33,034 bases of DNA from Verrucomicrobiota bacterium (GTDB lineage: Bacteria > Verrucomicrobiota > Verrucomicrobiia > Limisphaerales > JACDHS01). How positions within the stretch are numbered: position 1 is the stretch's first letter; each line of letters begins with the position of its first letter. A program made the position numbers and the translations under genes. The stretch spans positions 1 through 33,034 of the forward strand of contig JACDHS010000055.1 of assembly GCA_013820875.1 (NCBI GenBank), written 5' to 3'. The notes under the pieces are model-generated. The model was not told the DNA's origin. It did no database searches and saw nothing but the letters and a program-made list of their open reading frames with translations. Positions 5,909-15,357 of the stretch are shown here, in pieces.

Positions 5909-5937
5909 TTGACAGCCCGCTGCAATTGCTATATGAA
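5909..5937 (+). promoter_or_regulatory. Sigma70-type promoter of the envelope operon
   Basis: A perfect -35 box TTGACA (5909-5914) is followed after 17 bp by TATGAA (5932-5937; 4/6 match to the -10 consensus). The start site would be about 5944, roughly 160 nt before the first gene at 6102. A second TTGACA at 5895-5900 has no comparable -10 box. Confidence 0.55.
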
Positions 5938-5938
5938 T

Positions 5939-5960
5939 CCCCTATTCAAATGTATAGGGG
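5939..5960. promoter_or_regulatory. Inverted repeat at the predicted transcription start
   Basis: Arms CCCCTAT (5939-5945) and ATAGGGG (5954-5960) are separated by 8 nt and overlap the predicted +1 of the promoter just upstream. It could be a repressor operator or a 5'-end hairpin stabilising the operon mRNA. No adjacent regulator gene helps to choose. Confidence 0.4.
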
Positions 5961-6101
5961 CATTTCCAGTAAAGATTCGCGATTATACATTCCGGCGAGG
6001 CGTTCGGCGCTCTTGCTTACCGCTCTAGCTTATAAAACAGGAGCGCTCACCTAACTCCGCTAAGCCAATTACTTTCAGTTTAGTAAATAAATATATACCA
6101 T

Positions 6102-6389
6102 ATGCATCAAGAGCCACCGGCACAACAAACCCAACAGGCACCGAAACAGGTAATCATCGTGCAATCCACGAAAAGCGTGGGAGTAGCTATTCTGCTCTCA
6201 TTCTTCTTCGGGCCGCTCGGCATGTTTTACTCCACCGTTTCGGGTGCCGTTGTCATGATTTTCGCGAATTTGGTCGCGGTCTTTCTTACATTGGGGATCG
6301 GACTCGTACTCACATGGCCAATCGGCATGATCTGGGCTGCGCGAGCTGCCAGCGCTCATAATAAGAAGCTACTGACTGGAGTGAACTAA
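6102..6389 (+). CDS. Small inner-membrane protein (TM2-like)
   Basis: A 95-aa protein. The first ~20 residues are Gln/Pro-rich (QEPPAQQTQQAPKQ) and cytoplasmic-like. Two hydrophobic segments follow: VGVAILLSFFFGPLGMFYST (about 27-46) and VVMIFANLVAVFLTLGIGLV (about 50-69), with a further WPIGMIWAARAASAHN motif. The FGPLGMFY and WPIGMIWA motifs recall TM2-domain and related small membrane proteins. It is the first gene after the 5909 promoter and lies 82 bp before the CsgG/PEGA gene, so it probably belongs to that envelope operon. Function unknown. Confidence 0.75.
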   Translation: MHQEPPAQQTQQAPKQVIIVQSTKSVGVAILLSFFFGPLGMFYSTVSGAVVMIFANLVAVFLTLGIGLVLTWPIGMIWAARAASAHNKKLLTGVN

Positions 6390-6471
6390 ACTCTGCAATC
6401 AGTCCATCACGGAACGAACTTGGTGATTTCCTGTCGGTAAATTGCCAGGCAATTGAACAACATAATAAGCT

Positions 6472-7611
6472 ATGAAAATGCGAAATGGTGGTTGGGTGAG
6501 CAATTTGTCACGGTTGTTTACACTGATTCTGTCTCTCCTTATCCCGTGCAGCGTTCTCGCTCAAAACGAGACACCGAGAAAAGCCGCGATCTTTGTGGAG
6601 AACAGGGGAGGAGCAGCGTTGAGCGACCAAGTGCCGGTATTTGAAGACCTCATCACTAGTCGAATTGCTGACAAGGGATTTGTAGTGATTAGTCGGGAAA
6701 CTTCGATCGGCGCTCTAAAAAAGGGAACCCGTCTGGATGAATTACTCGAGAGCAATACATCGGCTCTACGTCTGGCGCAGAGTCTCGGCGCAGATTACCT
6801 CATTGTCGTTTCAATAACTTCCTTCGGCTCTGAAAAGCGCACATTCAAGGATGAGAATCTTAACACTGTGAACCTGATCGAAACGTTGCGTGTCAGTTAT
6901 AAGATACTTGAAGGCGCACAGGGAGGCGCGCTCGCCGGGGCTCCTATCAAGGTGAGTAAGACCACCCGTTCTACTGCCAACAACCAAACGGAAAGCAGCG
7001 ACACAATCAACGAATTGCTGGATGAAGCCGCGGCAAAAATTGCGGATAGCATGGGAACAAAACAATCCATCGTTCGTCAGAAGGTCGTGCCGGCTGACTG
7101 GGTGGAAATTAGCGTAGCTTGCGGGATGCAGGATCTCGCTCAGTTGCCAATCAGTATTCCGGACATTTTCATCTCAGACGACAAAGTGGTGACGATTTCC
7201 GAAAGGAGACTGGAAATTCAACCTCTGGATGTAACGGTCGAACTCAATGGAACGGCTCTCGGTTCCGCTCCAGGAAAGTTTAAGGTGCCACCGGGCCTGA
7301 ATAAAATTCGTCTCACTCGCGAAGGGTTTGCCGATTGGGAACGGACTATTAACACTTACGATGGTCAGGTCCTCAAAGTTGCCCTTCAGATGAGTGAAGC
7401 GGGTTACGCTCGTTGGAAAGATAATACAGCCTTCCTTCAAAAGCTTGAAAACAATCGAAAGTTGACCGACGGCACCGTGAAAGTTCTCGAAGGTTTTGCG
7501 CAAACATTGCGCCAGAGCGGTTACAAAGTGGACGTCAAGCACGACTCATTAGTGAGACACGAGTCGAAAGGGGATGCCCTCATCAAACCACAAATTAGCA
7601 TTTTTAAATAG
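6472..7611 (+). CDS. Secreted CsgG/LpoB-like protein with PEGA domain
   Basis: A 379-aa protein with a signal peptide (hydrophobic LFTLILSLLIPCSVLA, cleaved before QNE). Residues ~37-205 have the CsgG/LpoB-type alpha/beta pattern: AAIFVENR, then LITSRIADKGFVVISRE and LGADYLIVVSI, as in proteins that assemble at or activate envelope machines. Residues ~250-310 form a PEGA domain (PLDVTVELNGTALGSAPGKF followed by GLNKIRLTREGF), a beta module common in surface and envelope proteins. The C-terminal ~70 residues are charged and helical. It lacks a lipobox cysteine, unlike the later LpoB in the same operon. ATG 6472 or ATG 6478 could start it; no clear Shine-Dalgarno. The next gene follows after 5 bp. 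Confidence 0.75.
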   Translation: MKMRNGGWVSNLSRLFTLILSLLIPCSVLAQNETPRKAAIFVENRGGAALSDQVPVFEDLITSRIADKGFVVISRETSIGALKKGTRLDELLESNTSALRLAQSLGADYLIVVSITSFGSEKRTFKDENLNTVNLIETLRVSYKILEGAQGGALAGAPIKVSKTTRSTANNQTESSDTINELLDEAAAKIADSMGTKQSIVRQKVVPADWVEISVACGMQDLAQLPISIPDIFISDDKVVTISERRLEIQPLDVTVELNGTALGSAPGKFKVPPGLNKIRLTREGFADWERTINTYDGQVLKVALQMSEAGYARWKDNTAFLQKLENNRKLTDGTVKVLEGFAQTLRQSGYKVDVKHDSLVRHESKGDALIKPQISIFK

Positions 7612-7616
7612 TTACC

Positions 7617-8510
7617 ATGAAACGTAATGTCATCCGCGCGGTTGCTGTCATTTCAATATTGGCCAGTCACTTTGCTGCATGGGCGCAACTCGATACCCTC
7701 GGAGTCGCCGCTATAACGCCTGGAAAATCGCTCGCCGAAAGCATCAAAAATTCCGGCAAGACGCTGTCCATGGGCCGTGTCACTGAATCCATGGATGGCC
7801 AGTTGCTGGATCGATTCAACGCAACGCGCAAGTTCCAATTGGTTGCTGTCAGCGATCTCAAGGAATTGGTCAAATCACAGGAACGGGCGCATTCAGGGAA
7901 CTATGACGCCGATGATCCTAATCTCCCTCAGTTGTTCAAACTCGCTGGGGTTAAATTCCACGTCATTACCACGGTGGACGATTTTCAGGATGTGACTGAG
8001 AAAGCCAGGTTCTCTGACGGTGGCACTGGGCTCCGCCGAAATGTCAGGCTTTCAGCCGTCGCGAAGATTTACGAAACCGCGACCGGCAAATTACTCGAGT
8101 CCGCCAATTTTCAAGTGACTACCAATTCGGTCCGTGAAGATCTGTCAATTGCATCCCGTGACGGCGAACTGACGGACGAATTGTTCGTTTCCATTGCACG
8201 CGATATTGCGGGGAAAATTGCCAACCATGTGGCTGATGTTGTTTTCCCGGCGAAGGTGCTGGTGAAGCGCGACAAGCAAATCACGATCAACCGAGGTCAA
8301 GGCGCCGGAATTGAGCTGGATCAGATATGGAACGTTTTTGCAGTGGGCGAGGAACTGATCGACCCGGACACCAACGAATCGCTTGGTCGGGAAGAAATTC
8401 CGGTAGGTAAAGCGAAGATTGTCAGTATCCAACCGAAGACGTCCACCGCTCATATCCTTGAAGATTTAGGCATAGATCGCGGGGCTGTTCTACGCCTGCC
8501 CGCTCGTTAG
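7617..8510 (+). CDS. Secreted CsgG-like protein with FlgT-like C-terminal domain
   Basis: A 297-aa protein with a signal peptide (VIRAVAVISILASHFAAWAQ). Residues ~25-200 are a CsgG-type fold: LGVAAITPGK, a helix, FQLVAVSDLKELVKSQ, AGVKFHVITTVDDF, and KIYETATGKLLESANF, the strand-turn-strand seen in CsgG/LpoB proteins. The C-terminal ~90 residues (KVLVKRDKQITINRGQGAGI, then WNVFAVGEEL, IPVGKAKIVSIQP) match the SH3-like domain found at the C-terminus of FlgT and related proteins. CsgG forms an outer-membrane secretion pore and FlgT a flagellar ring; a periplasmic or outer-membrane assembly role is inferred. No lipobox is seen. Confidence 0.75.
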   Translation: MKRNVIRAVAVISILASHFAAWAQLDTLGVAAITPGKSLAESIKNSGKTLSMGRVTESMDGQLLDRFNATRKFQLVAVSDLKELVKSQERAHSGNYDADDPNLPQLFKLAGVKFHVITTVDDFQDVTEKARFSDGGTGLRRNVRLSAVAKIYETATGKLLESANFQVTTNSVREDLSIASRDGELTDELFVSIARDIAGKIANHVADVVFPAKVLVKRDKQITINRGQGAGIELDQIWNVFAVGEELIDPDTNESLGREEIPVGKAKIVSIQPKTSTAHILEDLGIDRGAVLRLPAR

Positions 8511-8554
8511 CGCTGCTCTATAAACACAAACTCAGACAACAAACAAACCCAATC

Positions 8555-10039
8555 ATGAATCCTACTCGATTCGCAACGACACTATTAGCTGCCTGTGCGG
8601 CGCTTATTCTGACCGGTTGCCAGACCTATAATCAGCAGAACACAGGCCTTGCACATTGGCGCAATGGTAATGTGGAACTGGCGGCAAAGGAATATTCCAA
8701 GAAAACGGAAAAAGAAAAGACGACCAAGGACAGTGTGATCTGGCGATTGGAGGAAGGGACCGTGTTGCGAGCCGCAGCGAGGTATGAAGAAAGCAATGCT
8801 GCGTTTACTGCCGCTGAAGAGCAAATTGACGCGTTTGAGGAAAAGGCGAAGATCAGTGTCAGTCGGGAAACCGGAGCGATGTTCTCAAATCAAGCGACGT
8901 TGCCTTATGAAGGGCGTGCTTTCGACAAAATCATGCTGCACACCTATAAAGCATTGAATTATCTGCAATTGGGTGAGTCGGACAAAGCCAGGGTTGAAAT
9001 CATTCGCGCCTATCAGAGGCAGCAGGATGCTGTCGAAGAAAACAAGCGGCGAATCGAAAAGGCTGAGAAGGCTGCAGCAAAGCAGGCAGAAGAATCGGAA
9101 TCCACCGAGACTCCGTCTAAAGGTAAGGCCAAAGAGGAGGCTCAACAGCAAGCCGACGCGCAGAAAAGTGCGGAGCAGGCTAAATCCGATGAACGTTTTC
9201 TGAAACAGGTAGATACGGCTTATGGAGATTTGGATGCAATCAAAGCTTATGCCGATTATGTCAACCCGTTGGCAGTTTACCTGGATGGCATTTTTTTCAT
9301 GAGCAACGCCGCGGATAACTCAGACTTGGAGCGTGCGCGAAAATCCTTGGAACGAACTCTCGCTTTAACCGGGGAAAACAAGTTTATTCAGGAAGATATT
9401 GAAGCACTGGAAAAGGTGACTGCCGGGCAACCGATTTCGCCAACTACATACGTAATATTTGAGACGGGATTGGCGCCTGTTCGCGATCAAATCCGGATTG
9501 ATTTGCCGATCATTTTGGCCGGGTCGCTGAAGGTTCCCTATGTGGGAGCGGCTTTTCCGAAGCTCTTGTATAACTCTTCGAACTTTCTGCACAATGTAAC
9601 CATCTCCACTGCTGAACGCAGCGAACACACCCTGTCGCTCGCCAGTGTTGACAGTATCGTTGCGAACGATTTCAAGAACGAGCTTCCCACGATTATCACC
9701 AAAACGCTCCTTTCGACGACTATAAAGGCCATTGCTGCATATGCAGCTAACAAAGCAGTGGAAAAGGAGGATGCGTTTACCCGCATCGCTGTGGCCCTGG
9801 CGACCGCTACAGCACAGGCAGCAGTCAACATTGCCGATACCCGCACCTGGACGACGCTGCCGAAGGAATTCCAGTTCTGCCGAATTGCGACTCCAGAAGA
9901 TCGAAAGCTGGAAATCATTCATCCAGTATCCGGTGAAAAAGTTTCTGTAGAACTTCAAGAGGGCACTGTGAACCTTCTTTTTGTAAAGGCCATTTCCGCA
10001 AACACTCCACTACTTGTTTCCCAGGCTAAACTTAAATGA
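8555..10039 (+). CDS. COG3014-family lipoprotein with TPR-like helices
   Basis: A 494-aa lipoprotein with signal and lipobox LILTGC (Cys22). TPR-like helices follow: GLAHWRNGNVELAAKEYSKK, then ALNYLQLGESDKARVEIIRA. A highly charged coiled-coil (about 165-215, EEAQQQADAQKSAEQ) interrupts them. The C-terminal half has the conserved beta-rich segment (YVIFETGLAPVRDQIRIDLP) and a helical ALATATAQAAVN region ending in a WTTLPKEFQFCRI strand. This order matches the COG3014 proteins encoded beside YcfL and LpoB in proteobacteria, as it is here. A role linked to LpoB-dependent cell-wall synthesis is inferred. The stop overlaps the next start by ATGA (10036-10039), suggesting translational coupling. 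Confidence 0.8.
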   Translation: MNPTRFATTLLAACAALILTGCQTYNQQNTGLAHWRNGNVELAAKEYSKKTEKEKTTKDSVIWRLEEGTVLRAAARYEESNAAFTAAEEQIDAFEEKAKISVSRETGAMFSNQATLPYEGRAFDKIMLHTYKALNYLQLGESDKARVEIIRAYQRQQDAVEENKRRIEKAEKAAAKQAEESESTETPSKGKAKEEAQQQADAQKSAEQAKSDERFLKQVDTAYGDLDAIKAYADYVNPLAVYLDGIFFMSNAADNSDLERARKSLERTLALTGENKFIQEDIEALEKVTAGQPISPTTYVIFETGLAPVRDQIRIDLPIILAGSLKVPYVGAAFPKLLYNSSNFLHNVTISTAERSEHTLSLASVDSIVANDFKNELPTIITKTLLSTTIKAIAAYAANKAVEKEDAFTRIAVALATATAQAAVNIADTRTWTTLPKEFQFCRIATPEDRKLEIIHPVSGEKVSVELQEGTVNLLFVKAISANTPLLVSQAKLK

Positions 10040-10449
10040 AGACTTTTGTTATTGTTTCTCTCGCCGGTGTCTGCACCGCGTTTACCGGTTGCACCACTAT
10101 CAACACTGTTGAACGCGCCGAACCGATCGCTGCGCGCCAGATGGTCAGCGATCAACGTGTGCTCACGGACAACAGCCTGAACCGCAGTGTCCGCATTTTG
10201 GGAGTCAACGAAAGCACTGGGCCGGGTGACCATCTCAAAGTTCAAATCGAACTGCAGAACACCACCCGTACCACAAAAGGGTTCAGCTACAAATTCGAAT
10301 GGTTCGACGCGAATGGAATGCTTCTGCGCACCCCTGCCTCCGCGTTTGTGCCCCGGCAAATTGAAGGCAAAGAAAGCATTTTCATTACTGCTGTATCCCC
10401 GATCGCCACAGCTAAAGACTTCCGCCTGAAACTGATTGAAAGTCGTTAA
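10036..10449 (+). CDS. ycfL: YcfL-family lipoprotein (DUF1425)
   Basis: A 137-aa protein with a signal and lipobox-like AFTGC (Cys19). The mature domain is a small beta-sandwich: VRILGVNES, LKVQIELQNTT, FSYKFEWFDANGML, then IEGKESIFITAVSP and KDFRLKLIESR. This is the YcfL/DUF1425 pattern; ycfL adjoins lpoB in E. coli, and the same adjacency here supports the call. Function is unknown even in E. coli, but linkage points to the outer-membrane lipoprotein system that controls PBP1b. The start overlaps the previous stop (ATGA). The Phe at position -3 of the lipobox is unusual and may lower lipidation efficiency. Confidence 0.8.
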   Translation: MKTFVIVSLAGVCTAFTGCTTINTVERAEPIAARQMVSDQRVLTDNSLNRSVRILGVNESTGPGDHLKVQIELQNTTRTTKGFSYKFEWFDANGMLLRTPASAFVPRQIEGKESIFITAVSPIATAKDFRLKLIESR

Positions 10450-10465
10450 AACAAATCTTCGTCAC

Positions 10466-11059
10466 ATGAAAAAAACAATATCTACTCTTATTGCGGCTAG
10501 CATCCTCTCCGGTTTGCTCGTTGGATGCGCAACGCCTCAAGCGAAATACGTTGAAGGAACACAGCGTGTCGTCACGGGAAACAAAATTAATGTCCAGGAC
10601 TGGGAGAGCGCTGCTCAAACAATGATTGATTCACTGCTGGATAACGTTGTGAACAAAGGAAAATTGCAAACTCCTCCAGGAGAACCAGCCGTTTTCGCCG
10701 TCAGCCAAATTCGAAACAATACTGGGCAGCACATTGATACAGATTTGCTCACTAAGAAAATTCGAATCGCACTTAATCAGACCGACAAAATTGTGACAAC
10801 GACAACATTCGGTCCCGCGGCCGAGGACCAGATTGCCAAAGGAAGTTCAGAGCGAGATGCTTTTTTGCGAAATGCATCCATTCGGCGCCCCGACTATACG
10901 CTTTCAGGTAAGATCATTGAAGACAGAGTTCGCGCTGGAAACGTGCGGCAGTCCTCATTCATCTTTCAGCTTTCCTTGAGCGACTCACGGGGACTTGCGA
11001 TCTGGGAGGACGAACACCCCATCACAAAACAAGTGAAGGGTGGCTCTGTTGGTTTCTAA
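10466..11059 (+). CDS. lpoB: Penicillin-binding protein activator LpoB
   Basis: A 197-aa lipoprotein starting MKKTISTLIAASILSGLLVG-C (Cys21). It has the LpoB fold pattern: WESAAQTMIDSLLDN, AVFAVSQIRNNTGQHID, LLTKKIRIAL, PDYTLSGKIIEDRV and SFIFQLSLSDSRGLAIWEDE. In E. coli LpoB reaches from the outer membrane through the peptidoglycan to stimulate PBP1b. The long disordered Pro-rich linker that E. coli LpoB has after Cys20 is short here, so its reach would differ. The open frame extends 10 codons upstream, but that start overlaps ycfL and would spoil the signal peptide, so ATG 10466 (16 bp after ycfL) was chosen. No class A PBP is in the window. Confidence 0.85.
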   Translation: MKKTISTLIAASILSGLLVGCATPQAKYVEGTQRVVTGNKINVQDWESAAQTMIDSLLDNVVNKGKLQTPPGEPAVFAVSQIRNNTGQHIDTDLLTKKIRIALNQTDKIVTTTTFGPAAEDQIAKGSSERDAFLRNASIRRPDYTLSGKIIEDRVRAGNVRQSSFIFQLSLSDSRGLAIWEDEHPITKQVKGGSVGF

Positions 11060-11064
11060 ACTGC

Positions 11065-11448
11065 ATGCAAATGCCAGCTATTGAACGAAAACTATTCCGC
11101 TACGCGATCCTGTTTTTAGGGTTTGCAATCCTTTCCGGTTGTGCCGCAGACCGGGTTGGACTGACAAATTCCCAACATCCAGGGCCTGCTATCGGCCAGG
11201 CGGTTGGTTCCACAGTTGGTGCGATTGGTGGAAATGCAGTCGCCGGAGTCGTTGGATTCGGCGAAGGGATTGCTATTGGTGCTGCTGCGCCTTTTGATAA
11301 TACAAAACGCGTCGTCCGACATTGGCGAACGGAAGTCACCGCTGATGGCCGTAATATCCAGGTTCCGGAAAACTACATTGTCGATAATCTTGGGCGCCCC
11401 GTCACCGGGAAGAGTAGCAAAAACGATGTTCGGCGGGGCGTGAGATAA
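11065..11448 (+). CDS. Small glycine-rich lipoprotein
   Basis: A 127-aa protein with signal and lipobox AILSGC (Cys26). A Gly/Ala-rich central segment (about residues 40-75: AIGQAVGSTVGAIGGNAVAG) has glycine-zipper spacing, suggesting a membrane-associated helical hairpin. A polar C-terminal part (HWRTEVTADGRNIQVPENYI) follows. It starts 5 bp after lpoB and is the last gene of the operon. The family is not recognised. ATG 11065 or ATG 11071 could be the start. Confidence 0.7.
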   Translation: MQMPAIERKLFRYAILFLGFAILSGCAADRVGLTNSQHPGPAIGQAVGSTVGAIGGNAVAGVVGFGEGIAIGAAAPFDNTKRVVRHWRTEVTADGRNIQVPENYIVDNLGRPVTGKSSKNDVRRGVR

Positions 11449-11800: not shown

Positions 11801-12009
11801 GATTCAACTTGAATTCAAACAGTTGGGATTCGTCGGCTACGACTTATGGACAAATAGTTACTAGCCATTTTATTGAATTTGCCTAAATTCCACTCGCTCG
11901 ATAGGGAGATTTCACTGAGTTTATGGCTTTACCCAGGCAGTCAAACAAGCAATGAAGCGGCCCTTCCGATGCAACGTTGCAACAATTCAACGATTCACAT
12001 TTTAAACAA

Positions 12010-15000
12010 ATGACCAGCGCCCAAATCCGCCAAAGCTTTTTAGATTTTTTCAAATCGAAGCAGCACTCCATCGTCCCGTCATCGAGCCTGATGCCTGAAT
12101 CTCCCGGATTGCTCTTCACGAATGCGGGGATGAACCAGTTCGTGCCGATCTTCCTAAACGAACGCAAACCGGATGTCAGCAAGTGGTCTGGCGCCATTCC
12201 CGGCAGCGACACTCGCGCCGCGGATACCCAGAAATGCATCCGCGCCGGTGGCAAACATAACGACCTCGAAGATGTTGGGCTGGATACCTATCACCACACC
12301 TTTTTCGAGATGCTCGGGAATTGGAGCTTTGGCGATTACTTCAAAAAGGAAGCGATCGATTGGGCTTGGGAATTGATTGTCGGGGTTTGGAAATTTCCGC
12401 CGCAACGGCTCTACGCCACAGTTTATAGTCCGGACAAATCTGCAAACGACCCGAGTGAATTCGACCAGGAAGCGTGGGATCTCTGGGCGGAGAAATTCCG
12501 CGCCGCCGGACTCGATCCCGCCGTTCACATTGTGAACGGGAACAAGAAAGATAATTTCTGGATGATGGGCGAAACCGGCCCGTGCGGTCCGTGCTCGGAA
12601 TTGCACGTTGATCTCACTCCAGAAGGCGACACGAAAGGTTCCCTCGTCAACAAGGGAAGCGCGCAATGCATTGAGATCTGGAACCTGGTGTTCATCCAGT
12701 TCACTGCGAACCCGAATGGCACTTTCTCGCCGCTCCCAGCCAAACATGTGGATACCGGGATGGGATTCGAACGTGTCTGCGGCATCATCCAGAACACGAA
12801 GAATTTTACCGATTTCAACAGGATGATTTCGAACTACGACACGGATGTCTTCCGTCCGATCTTCGATAAGCTCGAAAAACTCTCTGGCAAAAAATACACA
12901 TCTACCTTGCCGAAGACCGGTTCGATCGGTGATACCGAGCAGGAGAAAGTTGATATTGCATTCCGCGTCATCGCCGATCACATCCGCACGCTTAGTTTCT
13001 CCATCGCGGACGGCATCCAACCCGGCAACACCGATCGCAATTATGTCCTGCGTCGAATCTTACGCCGCGCCGTTCGTTACGGTCGGACTCTTGGCTTCCA
13101 CGAACCATTCTTTTACAAACTGGTGGATGTGCTCGCAGACAATTTTGGCGCTGTCTTCCCTGAAATTCGTGAACGCCGTAATCATGTTGAAGATGTCATT
13201 AAGCTGGAGGAAGAATCGTTTAATAAAACGCTGGATCGCGGTATAGATCTATTTGGCGAAGAAGCCGGCAAACTTATGCCGGGTGGAACGGGCTACCAGC
13301 CCGTTGCTGCGGGCAACCTGCCCGCAGCTCCTGGCGCGACGTACTCAAGACGGAATTTGCCGCATTTCGAGAAGCCATGGGCCATTTATGCCGTTCATTT
13401 TTGCGCCTTCGGAAATCGACATCTCTCTGAAGCAGCCCGTGACATAGCTTTCGATTGCATCCTTAACTGGCGCGAGAAGCGATTTCGTCTGACCGCAGCT
13501 TGCGTGATGCCCGATCATGTTCATTTGATCCTGCAACCCGGTATCAAAGAAATGGCACAGGACGGAAATCCAGTGTTTTGGCCACTCTCGGAAATTCTCC
13601 ACTCAATCAAATCTTTTTCAGCGAATGAGATTAATAAAGTTGAGAAGAAATCAGGTCCGGTTTGGCAAGAGGAGCGGTTCGATCGCTACGTTCGTTCCGA
13701 TAAGGATCTGGAGGAAAAGTTCCAGTATGTATGTGGAAATCCATGGGCGGCGGGAATTGTTGACCAGACGCAGCCTTATCGTTGGCTGTGGACACAGGAT
13801 ATTGAAGCGGCTCAACCGTATGTTGCGCCGGCTACGTTGCCTTACGGCAAGGCTGCCGGGCAGGTTGCCCGCCAGAACGGGCTGGTAGCCCGTTCCACCC
13901 AGACAAACTCCCGGCAAATCGCCGGGGAGTTTGCCTTTAAACTTTATGACACCTATGGCTTCCCACTTGACCTCACTGAGTTAATGGCGCGGGAACGTGG
14001 CCTGACTGTGGACGTCGAAGGTTTCAACAGATTGATGGAAGAACAACGCACTCGTGCTCGTGCTGCGCAAAAGAAAGAAATCGTTTCCGTTTCTAATATT
14101 GATACATCAAACCCGACGAGTTTTGTTGGTTTTGAAAAACTCTCGGTGCAGGCGACCGTTCAAGAGGTTGTTACTGTTAAGGACAAGGTTGCTGTGATTT
14201 TCGATGTATCGCCTTTCTATGCAGAGATGGGTGGTCAGGTTGGCGACACCGGCGAACTCATCGGTGGCGGACAAATCTGGTATGTCGTTAATACCCAAAA
14301 AGTCGGCAACACCTTCTTACATTTTATCTCCGAGAAAGAAGCTCCCGCAGTTGGCTCCGAAGTGACGCTTACAGTGGAAGCAGGCCGCCGCAATGCGATC
14401 CAACGTCACCATACAGTCACTCACTTGCTCCATTGGGCGCTGCACGAAGTGGTCAGTAAAGAAGCGACTCAGAAAGGTTCTGCGGTTGGACCGGATAAAT
14501 TGACATTCGACTTCAACAGCGCACCGCTCACGGTCGAACAGGTGTCAGCAATCGAGCAACTCGTGAATGAGCGCATCCTTGAGAATGCGTCCGTAAGCTG
14601 GACGGAAGTTCCATACGCCGATATCAAAGGTCGTAAGGACATCATGCAGTTCTTTGGCGAAAAGTACGGCGACAAAGTTCGCGTCGTTCAGATTGGTGGC
14701 GGAGCAGGGGAGTTGAATGGTTATTCCATGGAACTCTGCGGCGGCACACATACCCGGGCGACAGGGGAAATCGGTTTGTTCCGCATCCTCGGCGAAAGCG
14801 CAATTGCTGCGGGCGTCCGGCGGATCGAAGCGGTCGCTGGTCTGCAGGCTTACGAGAAAAGCATCCAGGAACGCGAACTCATCACGAGCGTTGCCGGTAA
14901 AATCAATTCACCCATCGGCGAAGTTGAAAAGAAGATTGAAGCGTTGCTCGTTCAACAGAAAGAGTTGGAGAAACAACTTAAAGCCCTGCAACAAAAGCAA

Positions 15001-15357
15001 GCCGCAGGTCGCGCCAAAGAGTTGGTTGCCTCTGCCCAGGAGATAAACGCGATCCCAGCCATCATCGAAAATCTCGGTGAAACCGATGGTGACACATTGC
15101 AAATCATTGCGGACGCACTGAAATCTCAATTCAAAGGTGTCATCGTTCTCGGCGGTTCCGCCAGTGGCGCCGTTGCTTTGATTGCCGCAGTGACACCCGA
15201 CTTCACCGCCAAAGTGCAAGCTGGCAAAATCATCCAGGGCATCGCTCCAATCGTCGGCGGCAAAGGCGGCGGCAAACCCGACAACGCCCGCGGCGGTGGC
15301 AAAGATGCGAGCAAGCTTGATGAAGCACTCGCAAAAGCGAAGTCCTTGCTCGGTTAG
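12010..15357 (+). CDS. alaS: Alanyl-tRNA synthetase with in-frame transposase insertion
   Basis: Charges tRNA-Ala in the cytoplasm. From ATG 12010 the protein is 1115 aa, about 210 more than a typical AlaRS. Residues 1-~422 are the class II catalytic core and tRNA-recognition region (LFTNAGMNQFVP, THHTFFEMLGNWSFGDYF-type motif at 92-111, GETGPCGPCSE at 187-197, RNYVLRRILRRAVR). Residues ~423-634 are foreign: REP-like ends around a Y1 transposase. AlaRS resumes at IAGEFAFKLYDTYGFPLDLT, and the editing domain has H801-x3-H805 and C910-GGT-H914. A coiled coil and the C-Ala domain (GGKGGGKPDNARGGG) follow. All family motifs on both sides are intact and in frame. The insert sits in the loop between the recognition and editing modules (E. 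coli ELAKLSGDTLDGETAF). The frame is open back to TTG 11977, but ATG 12010 fits the family N-terminus. Confidence 0.93.
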   Translation: MTSAQIRQSFLDFFKSKQHSIVPSSSLMPESPGLLFTNAGMNQFVPIFLNERKPDVSKWSGAIPGSDTRAADTQKCIRAGGKHNDLEDVGLDTYHHTFFEMLGNWSFGDYFKKEAIDWAWELIVGVWKFPPQRLYATVYSPDKSANDPSEFDQEAWDLWAEKFRAAGLDPAVHIVNGNKKDNFWMMGETGPCGPCSELHVDLTPEGDTKGSLVNKGSAQCIEIWNLVFIQFTANPNGTFSPLPAKHVDTGMGFERVCGIIQNTKNFTDFNRMISNYDTDVFRPIFDKLEKLSGKKYTSTLPKTGSIGDTEQEKVDIAFRVIADHIRTLSFSIADGIQPGNTDRNYVLRRILRRAVRYGRTLGFHEPFFYKLVDVLADNFGAVFPEIRERRNHVEDVIKLEEESFNKTLDRGIDLFGEEAGKLMPGGTGYQPVAAGNLPAAPGATYSRRNLPHFEKPWAIYAVHFCAFGNRHLSEAARDIAFDCILNWREKRFRLTAACVMPDHVHLILQPGIKEMAQDGNPVFWPLSEILHSIKSFSANEINKVEKKSGPVWQEERFDRYVRSDKDLEEKFQYVCGNPWAAGIVDQTQPYRWLWTQDIEAAQPYVAPATLPYGKAAGQVARQNGLVARSTQTNSRQIAGEFAFKLYDTYGFPLDLTELMARERGLTVDVEGFNRLMEEQRTRARAAQKKEIVSVSNIDTSNPTSFVGFEKLSVQATVQEVVTVKDKVAVIFDVSPFYAEMGGQVGDTGELIGGGQIWYVVNTQKVGNTFLHFISEKEAPAVGSEVTLTVEAGRRNAIQRHHTVTHLLHWALHEVVSKEATQKGSAVGPDKLTFDFNSAPLTVEQVSAIEQLVNERILENASVSWTEVPYADIKGRKDIMQFFGEKYGDKVRVVQIGGGAGELNGYSMELCGGTHTRATGEIGLFRILGESAIAAGVRRIEAVAGLQAYEKSIQERELITSVAGKINSPIGEVEKKIEALLVQQKELEKQLKALQQKQAAGRAKELVASAQEINAIPAIIENLGETDGDTLQIIADALKSQFKGVIVLGGSASGAVALIAAVTPDFTAKVQAGKIIQGIAPIVGGKGGGKPDNARGGGKDASKLDEALAKAKSLLG
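13281..13328. repeat. Left terminal inverted repeat of the RAYT element (two REP hairpins)
   Basis: It contains ACGGGCTACCAGCCCGT (13288-13304, 7-bp stem, ACC loop) and GCGGGCAACCTGCCCGC (13309-13325, 7-bp stem, ACC loop). It is translated as GGTGYQPVAAGNLPAA. It matches the right end (13852-13900) in inverted orientation with only a few differences. Confidence 0.92.
13852..13900. repeat. Right terminal inverted repeat of the RAYT element (two REP hairpins)
   Basis: The reverse complement begins GGGTGGAACGGGCTACCAGC, identical to the left end for the first 25 bases and near-identical through the second hairpin (GGGCAACCTGCCCG). The two hairpins here are at about 13858-13871 and 13877-13893. 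It is translated in the alaS frame as AAGQVARQNGLVARST. Confidence 0.92.
13904..13933. repeat. Palindrome at the alaS/transposon right junction
   Basis: Arms CAAACTCCCGGC (13904-13915) and GCCGGGGAGTTTG (13921-13933) pair with one bulged base around AAATC. The left junction also folds (CCGGC 13265-13269, GCCGG 13278-13282), and CAAACT occurs on both sides (13269-13274 and 13904-13909). This may be the hairpin-like target into which the element went; it is inferred from sequence only. Confidence 0.55.

Follow-up and report, generated by a model that had tools for sequence, protein, structure and literature searches.

Results

Gene content of the locus

The window (the whole stretch of DNA analysed, 33,034 nucleotides) is one contig of a 5.7 Mb Verrucomicrobiota draft genome that is 99% complete. 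On its forward strand lie seven closely spaced genes, here lettered A to G (Table 1), which encode a small membrane protein (A), two proteins predicted to be secreted (B and C) and four predicted lipoproteins (D to G). Intergenic distances from A to G are 82, 5, 44, -4, 16 and 5 nt, the negative value reflecting an ATGA overlap between D and E. A preliminary description of this DNA read these genes as a seven-gene operon; the open reading frames (ORFs) and the overlap stand as described, but the unit conserved in relatives is smaller. Gene A has been dropped from that unit because no homologue was found in the 30 or more relatives' loci examined, and comparison across genomes (see below) confirms that the conserved unit is B-C-D-E-F (6472-11059), with G as a movable satellite that occurs near the cluster at 46 of 80 loci containing D, either 5' of B, 3' of F, or on the opposite strand. 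Sigma70-like matches in the window did not exceed chance expectation, as judged against shuffled sequence.

Table 1. Genes and promoter-like site of the cluster.
Feature	Position	Strand	Description
Promoter-like TTGACA-17-TATGAA, 5' of gene A	5909-5937	+	Best sigma70-like site, one mismatch to the pattern; not evidence of function
Gene A	6102-6389	+	95-aa small membrane protein; TM2 (E 8.2) and RseC_MucC (0.055) both below cut-off
Gene B	6472-7611	+	Predicted secreted protein; CsgG/FlgT_M-like domain plus PEGA (1.2e-9), no lipobox
Gene C	7617-8510	+	Predicted secreted FlgT-like protein; FlgT_M-like domain plus FlgT_C/TsaP-like C-terminal domain, no FlgT_N
Gene D	8555-10039	+	COG3014-like predicted lipoprotein; TPR helices (residues ~22-290), C-terminal beta/helical-hairpin domain
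Gene E	10036-10449	+	YcfL-family predicted lipoprotein; DUF1425 (PF07233), 4.9e-17
Gene F	10466-11059 (ATG start)	+	LpoB-family predicted lipoprotein, short linker; PF13036, 4.4e-20
Gene G	11065-11448	+	Glycine-rich (glycine-zipper) predicted lipoprotein; weak match to PA1041/YiaD glycine-zipper lipoproteins

The same window contains alaS (11977-15357, + strand), a single ORF of 1126 aa with an in-frame IS200/RAYT-like transposase insert (~13282-13923; Y1_Tnp, E 8e-4) lying between 44-nt inverted repeats (13281-13324 and 13857-13900, 93%); the AlaRS of a relative from the same family lacks the insert and is 925 aa long. Because two other relatives (loci L279 and L280) carry other in-frame inserts at this position, the sequences suggest that insertion at this site of AlaRS is tolerated.

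Lipoproteins D, E and F

The three lipoprotein genes D-E-F stand in the order of the COG3014-YcfL-LpoB trio; D is assigned to COG3014 on its gene position and on its profile similarity to genes of Aeromonas and Azospirillum. No Pfam or NCBIfam model matches D, and no relative was found in a PDB profile search. Its AlphaFold2 model (pLDDT 85) comprises TPR helices and, after them, a beta domain bearing a helical hairpin; for this model Foldseek returned TPR matches only, none with E < 0.001, while the C-terminal domain (within the full-length model) had no clear match; TPR matches are too common to suggest a function.

Protein F is assigned to the LpoB family by PF13036 (72.5 bits vs a cut-off of 22.3), scores 91.2 bits against the NCBI equivalog TIGR02722, below the cut-off of 110.55, and matches LpoB in the PDB (2mii) with E 0.008. 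Its lipobox cysteine, C21, is invariant in 17 orthologues, and its linker from this cysteine to the core spans ~21 residues, vs 54 in Escherichia coli LpoB.

Proteins B and C are relatives of FlgT and CsgG

The window copies of B and C score below threshold for CsgG (PF03783; 14.3 and 13.7 bits, respectively, vs a cut-off of 20.8), and a PF03783 search of their own genome yielded no match, so that single-family searching misses both. Among C orthologues, PF03783 was found in 14 of 15 at E values up to 1 (best 6e-15), and FlgT_M and FlgT_C in five of 15 each; the window's C alone had no Pfam sequence-level FlgT match. Profiles of B and C match one another (hhalign 95.8%, E 7e-9), no similarity to F appeared when either was aligned with it by the same program, and a PDB profile search with B found no relative. 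A lipobox is absent from the window's B and C, from all 13 B orthologues, and, by pattern, from all but one of 15 C orthologues.

The AlphaFold2 model of C (297 aa; pLDDT 79, weak at residues 79-107) contains a CsgG-like fold that begins at about residue 25, directly after the predicted signal peptide, and leaves no room for FlgT_N. Its top Foldseek matches were FlgT (3w1e, 3.4e-14 over 287 columns) and the LPHT ring (8z5n, 1.1e-13), followed, after FlgT, by HpaA, CsgG, LptE, GNA1162 and PelC. A second structural aligner found the same fold in 8z5n (Z 13, 152 residues, rmsd 3.6); over both domains the rmsd is ~12, and their relative placement is uncertain. The C-terminal domain matches, by profile, the TsaP-like proteins of 6ve2 (5.3e-8) and 3jc8 (6.4e-6). 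C is thus nearest by predicted fold to FlgT, a protein associated with flagellar rings, and by sequence to TsaP, which is associated with secretin rings; the FlgT-like C-terminus assigned to it in the preliminary description is borne out by Pfam matches in orthologues, by the TsaP-like profile match, and by Foldseek. LptE and TolB, found in the same lists of fold matches, show that the CsgG/LpoB fold is not confined to ring proteins.

Two more specific roles have been weighed for these proteins. The cluster might encode an accessory ring of another trans-envelope machine, for instance a type IV pilus or a type II secretin, in which C serves as a TsaP analogue, amounting to a scaffold with a named cargo. 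We regard this as quite unlikely: the C-terminal domain of C does match TsaP-type LysM proteins in solved pilus structures (6ve2, 3jc8), but no LysM match was found by Pfam in the window copy or in 15 orthologues, and unsystematic inspection of the neighbouring genes brought up none for a pilus or secretin. Alternatively, B, C or both might make up a secretion pore across the outer membrane, as CsgG does; a pore was also raised in the preliminary description, and the idea is compatible with the high rank of CsgG in the fold matches of C (Foldseek ~3e-6, Z about 11-13) and with the PF03783 matches of its orthologues. A pore nevertheless appears very unlikely, as both proteins lack the lipobox that CsgG has, the window copies fall below the family cut-off, C lies closer to FlgT than to CsgG, the long strands that would have to supply the membrane hairpins of C carry many charged residues (by inspection of sequence and model), and no curli-like substrate was noted in the cluster.

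Conservation across the phylum

Eighty loci were collected by scanning species genomes with the profile of D alone, B and C not being selected for; some record titles among them (Akkermansia muciniphila, Candidatus Brocadia, Hydrogenedentes) look misassigned and were left out as taxonomic evidence. All of B, C, D, E and F are present at 49 of the 80 loci, and C at 60; neither B nor C occurs at 18, some of them on short contigs. Wherever two neighbours are both present they share a strand (B-C, 50/50; C-D, 61/61; D-E, 80/80; E-F, 80/80). Median gaps along B-C-D-E-F are 27, 43, -4 and 23 nt (approximate values, with starts picked nearest the previous stop), the D-E overlap is present in most relatives, and a second HMM round left the picture of the D loci unchanged. 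Given 49 independent loci and a constant shared strand, the co-location of the five genes is not due to chance.

Single-protein searches of 97 genomes of the same order gave strong matches to D in 25, to F in 26, and to C and B in 17 each, with F present in every genome that has D. Of the 17 genomes with C, 16 also have D and one does not (Fisher 4e-11), and 15 also have B (P 1e-13); both P values ignore kinship. In nine of the 25 D-positive genomes of the order the trio D-E-F is found without B-C, and the trio alone is common in the phylum (e.g., loci L255, L261, L264 and L266). Many genomes carry the trio but no B-C, so that D-E-F forms the wider core and B-C is not obligatory.

In a sample of 240 genomes from the phylum, C was matched in 74 and D in 128; many of the weak D matches are probably TPR proteins, and FlgT/CsgG-like proteins other than C probably account for many of the weak C matches. 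In 28 of the 240 genomes the two genes are no more than 6 kb apart, always on the same strand, with C upstream of D in 27. Altered gene orders among 19 inspected loci comprise D-B-C-F, D-B-C-E-F, B-C-E-F without D, B-C-C-D-E-F, C-C-D-F-E-F and B-C-D-F-E-F, and the members of the cluster stay together, even when reordered, in distant Verrucomicrobiota families. Diverged copies of B and C turned up in at least one locus scored as C-negative (L272), and counts of absence are accordingly upper bounds. Several genomes (L144, L262, L265, L270) carry two LpoB-family paralogues per cluster, sometimes flanking ycfL.

The association of a CsgG-like pair with the COG3014-YcfL-LpoB trio, the core of the preliminary description, therefore holds: the linkage is kept across the phylum and survives reordering. 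The same description had named separation of the pair from the trio in relatives as grounds for rejecting its proposal, and on this point the survey is divided, with B-C accompanying the trio across the phylum and some relatives, among them the nine genomes above, having the trio by itself.

The trio outside Verrucomicrobiota

Proteobacterial loci were drawn from a plasmid collection. Aeromonas caviae has D-E-F alone, with a D-profile match (6e-44) directly 5' of ycfL-lpoB; E. coli keeps ycfL-lpoB only, in the same order as E-F. On plasmid p1 of Azospirillum sp. TSH100, D-E-F (D profile, 4e-77) is followed by a DUF6844 protein and then by a FlgT-like protein that matches the C profile (6e-22) and has an extra N-terminal region resembling FlgT_N by eye. 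The DUF6844 gene (L220:7896-9242) lies between lpoB and the FlgT-like gene. FlgT-like matches on Cupriavidus and Caballeronia megaplasmids had no adjoining trio. A FlgT-like partner beside the trio is thus found in two phyla, with Azospirillum the one proteobacterial example.

These distributions bear on whether the products act together at all. Co-transcribed lipoproteins for envelope housekeeping or stress, forming no joint complex, would fit the trio-only genomes of the order, the 18 loci lacking both B and C, and the shifting position of G. We find this reading doubtful, as the clustering outlasts reordering across the phylum and extends to an alphaproteobacterium, beyond what shared regulation ordinarily accounts for.

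Tests of links to wall synthesis and flagella

The preliminary description also suggested that the cluster might tie wall synthesis to an envelope pore or ring, and placed the trio next to PBP1b control in proteobacteria. F, together with E and D, might act as a wall-synthesis regulator like LpoB of E. coli, with B and C as extra sensors or extenders of reach; its match above the PF13036 cut-off, its lipobox, and the identity of the E-F order with that of E. coli ycfL-lpoB all agree with such a role, as does a broad resemblance (structural match rank 16) between D and LpoP of Pseudomonas, a TPR lipoprotein that is another PBP1b activator. LpoB acts on PBP1b via the UB2H docking domain, and both have been described as enterobacterial, arising together (PMC3060616). 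UB2H (PF14814) had no match in this 99%-complete draft genome; across the order, matches to it scored weakly, covered the domain incompletely in most cases, and showed no relation to the presence of LpoB (5 of 26 LpoB-positive genomes vs 16 of 71 others, P 1.0). The only Transgly domain (PF00912, GT51) found in the genome lies behind an O-antigen-ligase-like Wzy_C domain in a fusion of 675+ aa (L274, contig C37, 55475-55960), and two transpeptidase (PF00905) ORFs elsewhere in the genome have no Transgly match. No canonical class A PBP (Transgly plus Transpeptidase) was found, although the unassembled part of the draft could hide one. Because UB2H is unmatched and the sole Transgly domain belongs to the O-antigen-ligase fusion, activation of PBP1b by F in this genome is unlikely, and a link to wall synthesis by that route is not supported. 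The short linker of F and its score below the TIGR02722 cut-off likewise speak against the regulator reading as a whole, which we judge unlikely.

A flagellum is also unlikely, because FHIPEP (PF00771, FlhA) has no match in this genome. Across the 97 genomes of the order C shows no link to flagella, which were found in six of 17 C-positive genomes and 34 of 80 others (P 0.79). One relative that has FlhA encodes, away from the trio, a 454-aa FlgT-like protein (L038:6005-7369, - strand) whose N-terminus is FlgT_N-like by eye.

Discussion

A candidate non-flagellar scaffold anchored to the outer membrane

We infer, with a probability of roughly 40%, that B-C-D-E-F (plus G) encode a periplasmic scaffold anchored to the outer membrane, probably a ring or disk resembling the flagellar H ring but non-flagellar, in which F has a structural role. 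The H ring of Vibrio is built of FlgT together with the lipoproteins FlgO and FlgP (PMC7990780, PMC7693769). By analogy, C, and probably B, would be exported to the periplasm as soluble subunits and form oligomers there via their CsgG/FlgT_M-like domains, and the FlgT_C/TsaP-like C-terminal domain of C would hold on to a neighbouring protein or to a trans-envelope machine as its putative cargo. The lipoproteins D (with its TPR domain), E, F and G would tie this layer to the outer membrane, as FlgO and FlgP do FlgT, and F would be a structural subunit rather than an activator of PBP1b. Counted against this scaffold are the non-ring proteins among the fold matches, the many genomes that have the trio but not B-C, and the lack of hhalign similarity between F and either B or C; operon linkage, too, could reflect shared regulation only. 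The multi-part outer-membrane assembly envisaged in the preliminary description accordingly survives in part: the conserved linkage favours an assembly, for which a ring or scaffold is the best candidate, and its pore form lacks support.

More broadly, and more tentatively, a non-flagellar outer-membrane ring machine might be distributed across Verrucomicrobiota and some Proteobacteria, with LpoB-family and YcfL proteins as structural components beside FlgT-like ones; the PBP1b-activating LpoB of enterobacteria would then be a specialised offshoot, a speculative view that we hold to be possible. That an LpoB relative is kept throughout the phylum in one cluster with FlgT-like proteins, and here in a genome that yielded no enzyme partner for it, suggests that the older role of the LpoB family was structural. 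The cluster further hints that FlgT-type proteins also work where there is no flagellum, and offers a testable setting for the unstudied YcfL and COG3014. The literature searched contained no description of the cluster, which is weak evidence as many journals were not covered, and no match for COG3014 within the same incomplete coverage; all of the folds are known, and it is their combination and setting that are new within that literature.

Comparison with known systems

Like the Vibrio H ring (FlgT, FlgO, FlgP), the cluster combines a protein with FlgT_M- and FlgT_C-like domains, predicted to be secreted and, as in FlgT, lacking a lipobox, with partners that include lipoproteins. It differs in that C has no FlgT_N, the genome has no FlhA match, the partners are COG3014, YcfL and LpoB-family proteins, and no FlgP counterpart was seen. 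The CsgG curli channel shares its fold with C (by model) and with B (by profile match), whereas B and C lack the lipobox, score low for the family, and have no curli-like substrate noted in the cluster. TsaP, the pilus-secretin-associated protein, has a C-terminal domain related to that of C, which carries a CsgG-like domain in place of LysM. Compared with the PBP1b activator LpoB, F belongs to the same family and is likewise a predicted lipoprotein, but has a short linker, falls below the equivalog cut-off, and resides in a genome with no UB2H match and no canonical class A PBP found. Finally, D-E-F shares its gene order with the COG3014-YcfL-LpoB trio of Proteobacteria, as in Aeromonas caviae and Azospirillum; the copy in the window is preceded by B-C, whereas Azospirillum, alone of the proteobacterial copies seen, has a FlgT-like protein, encoded downstream.
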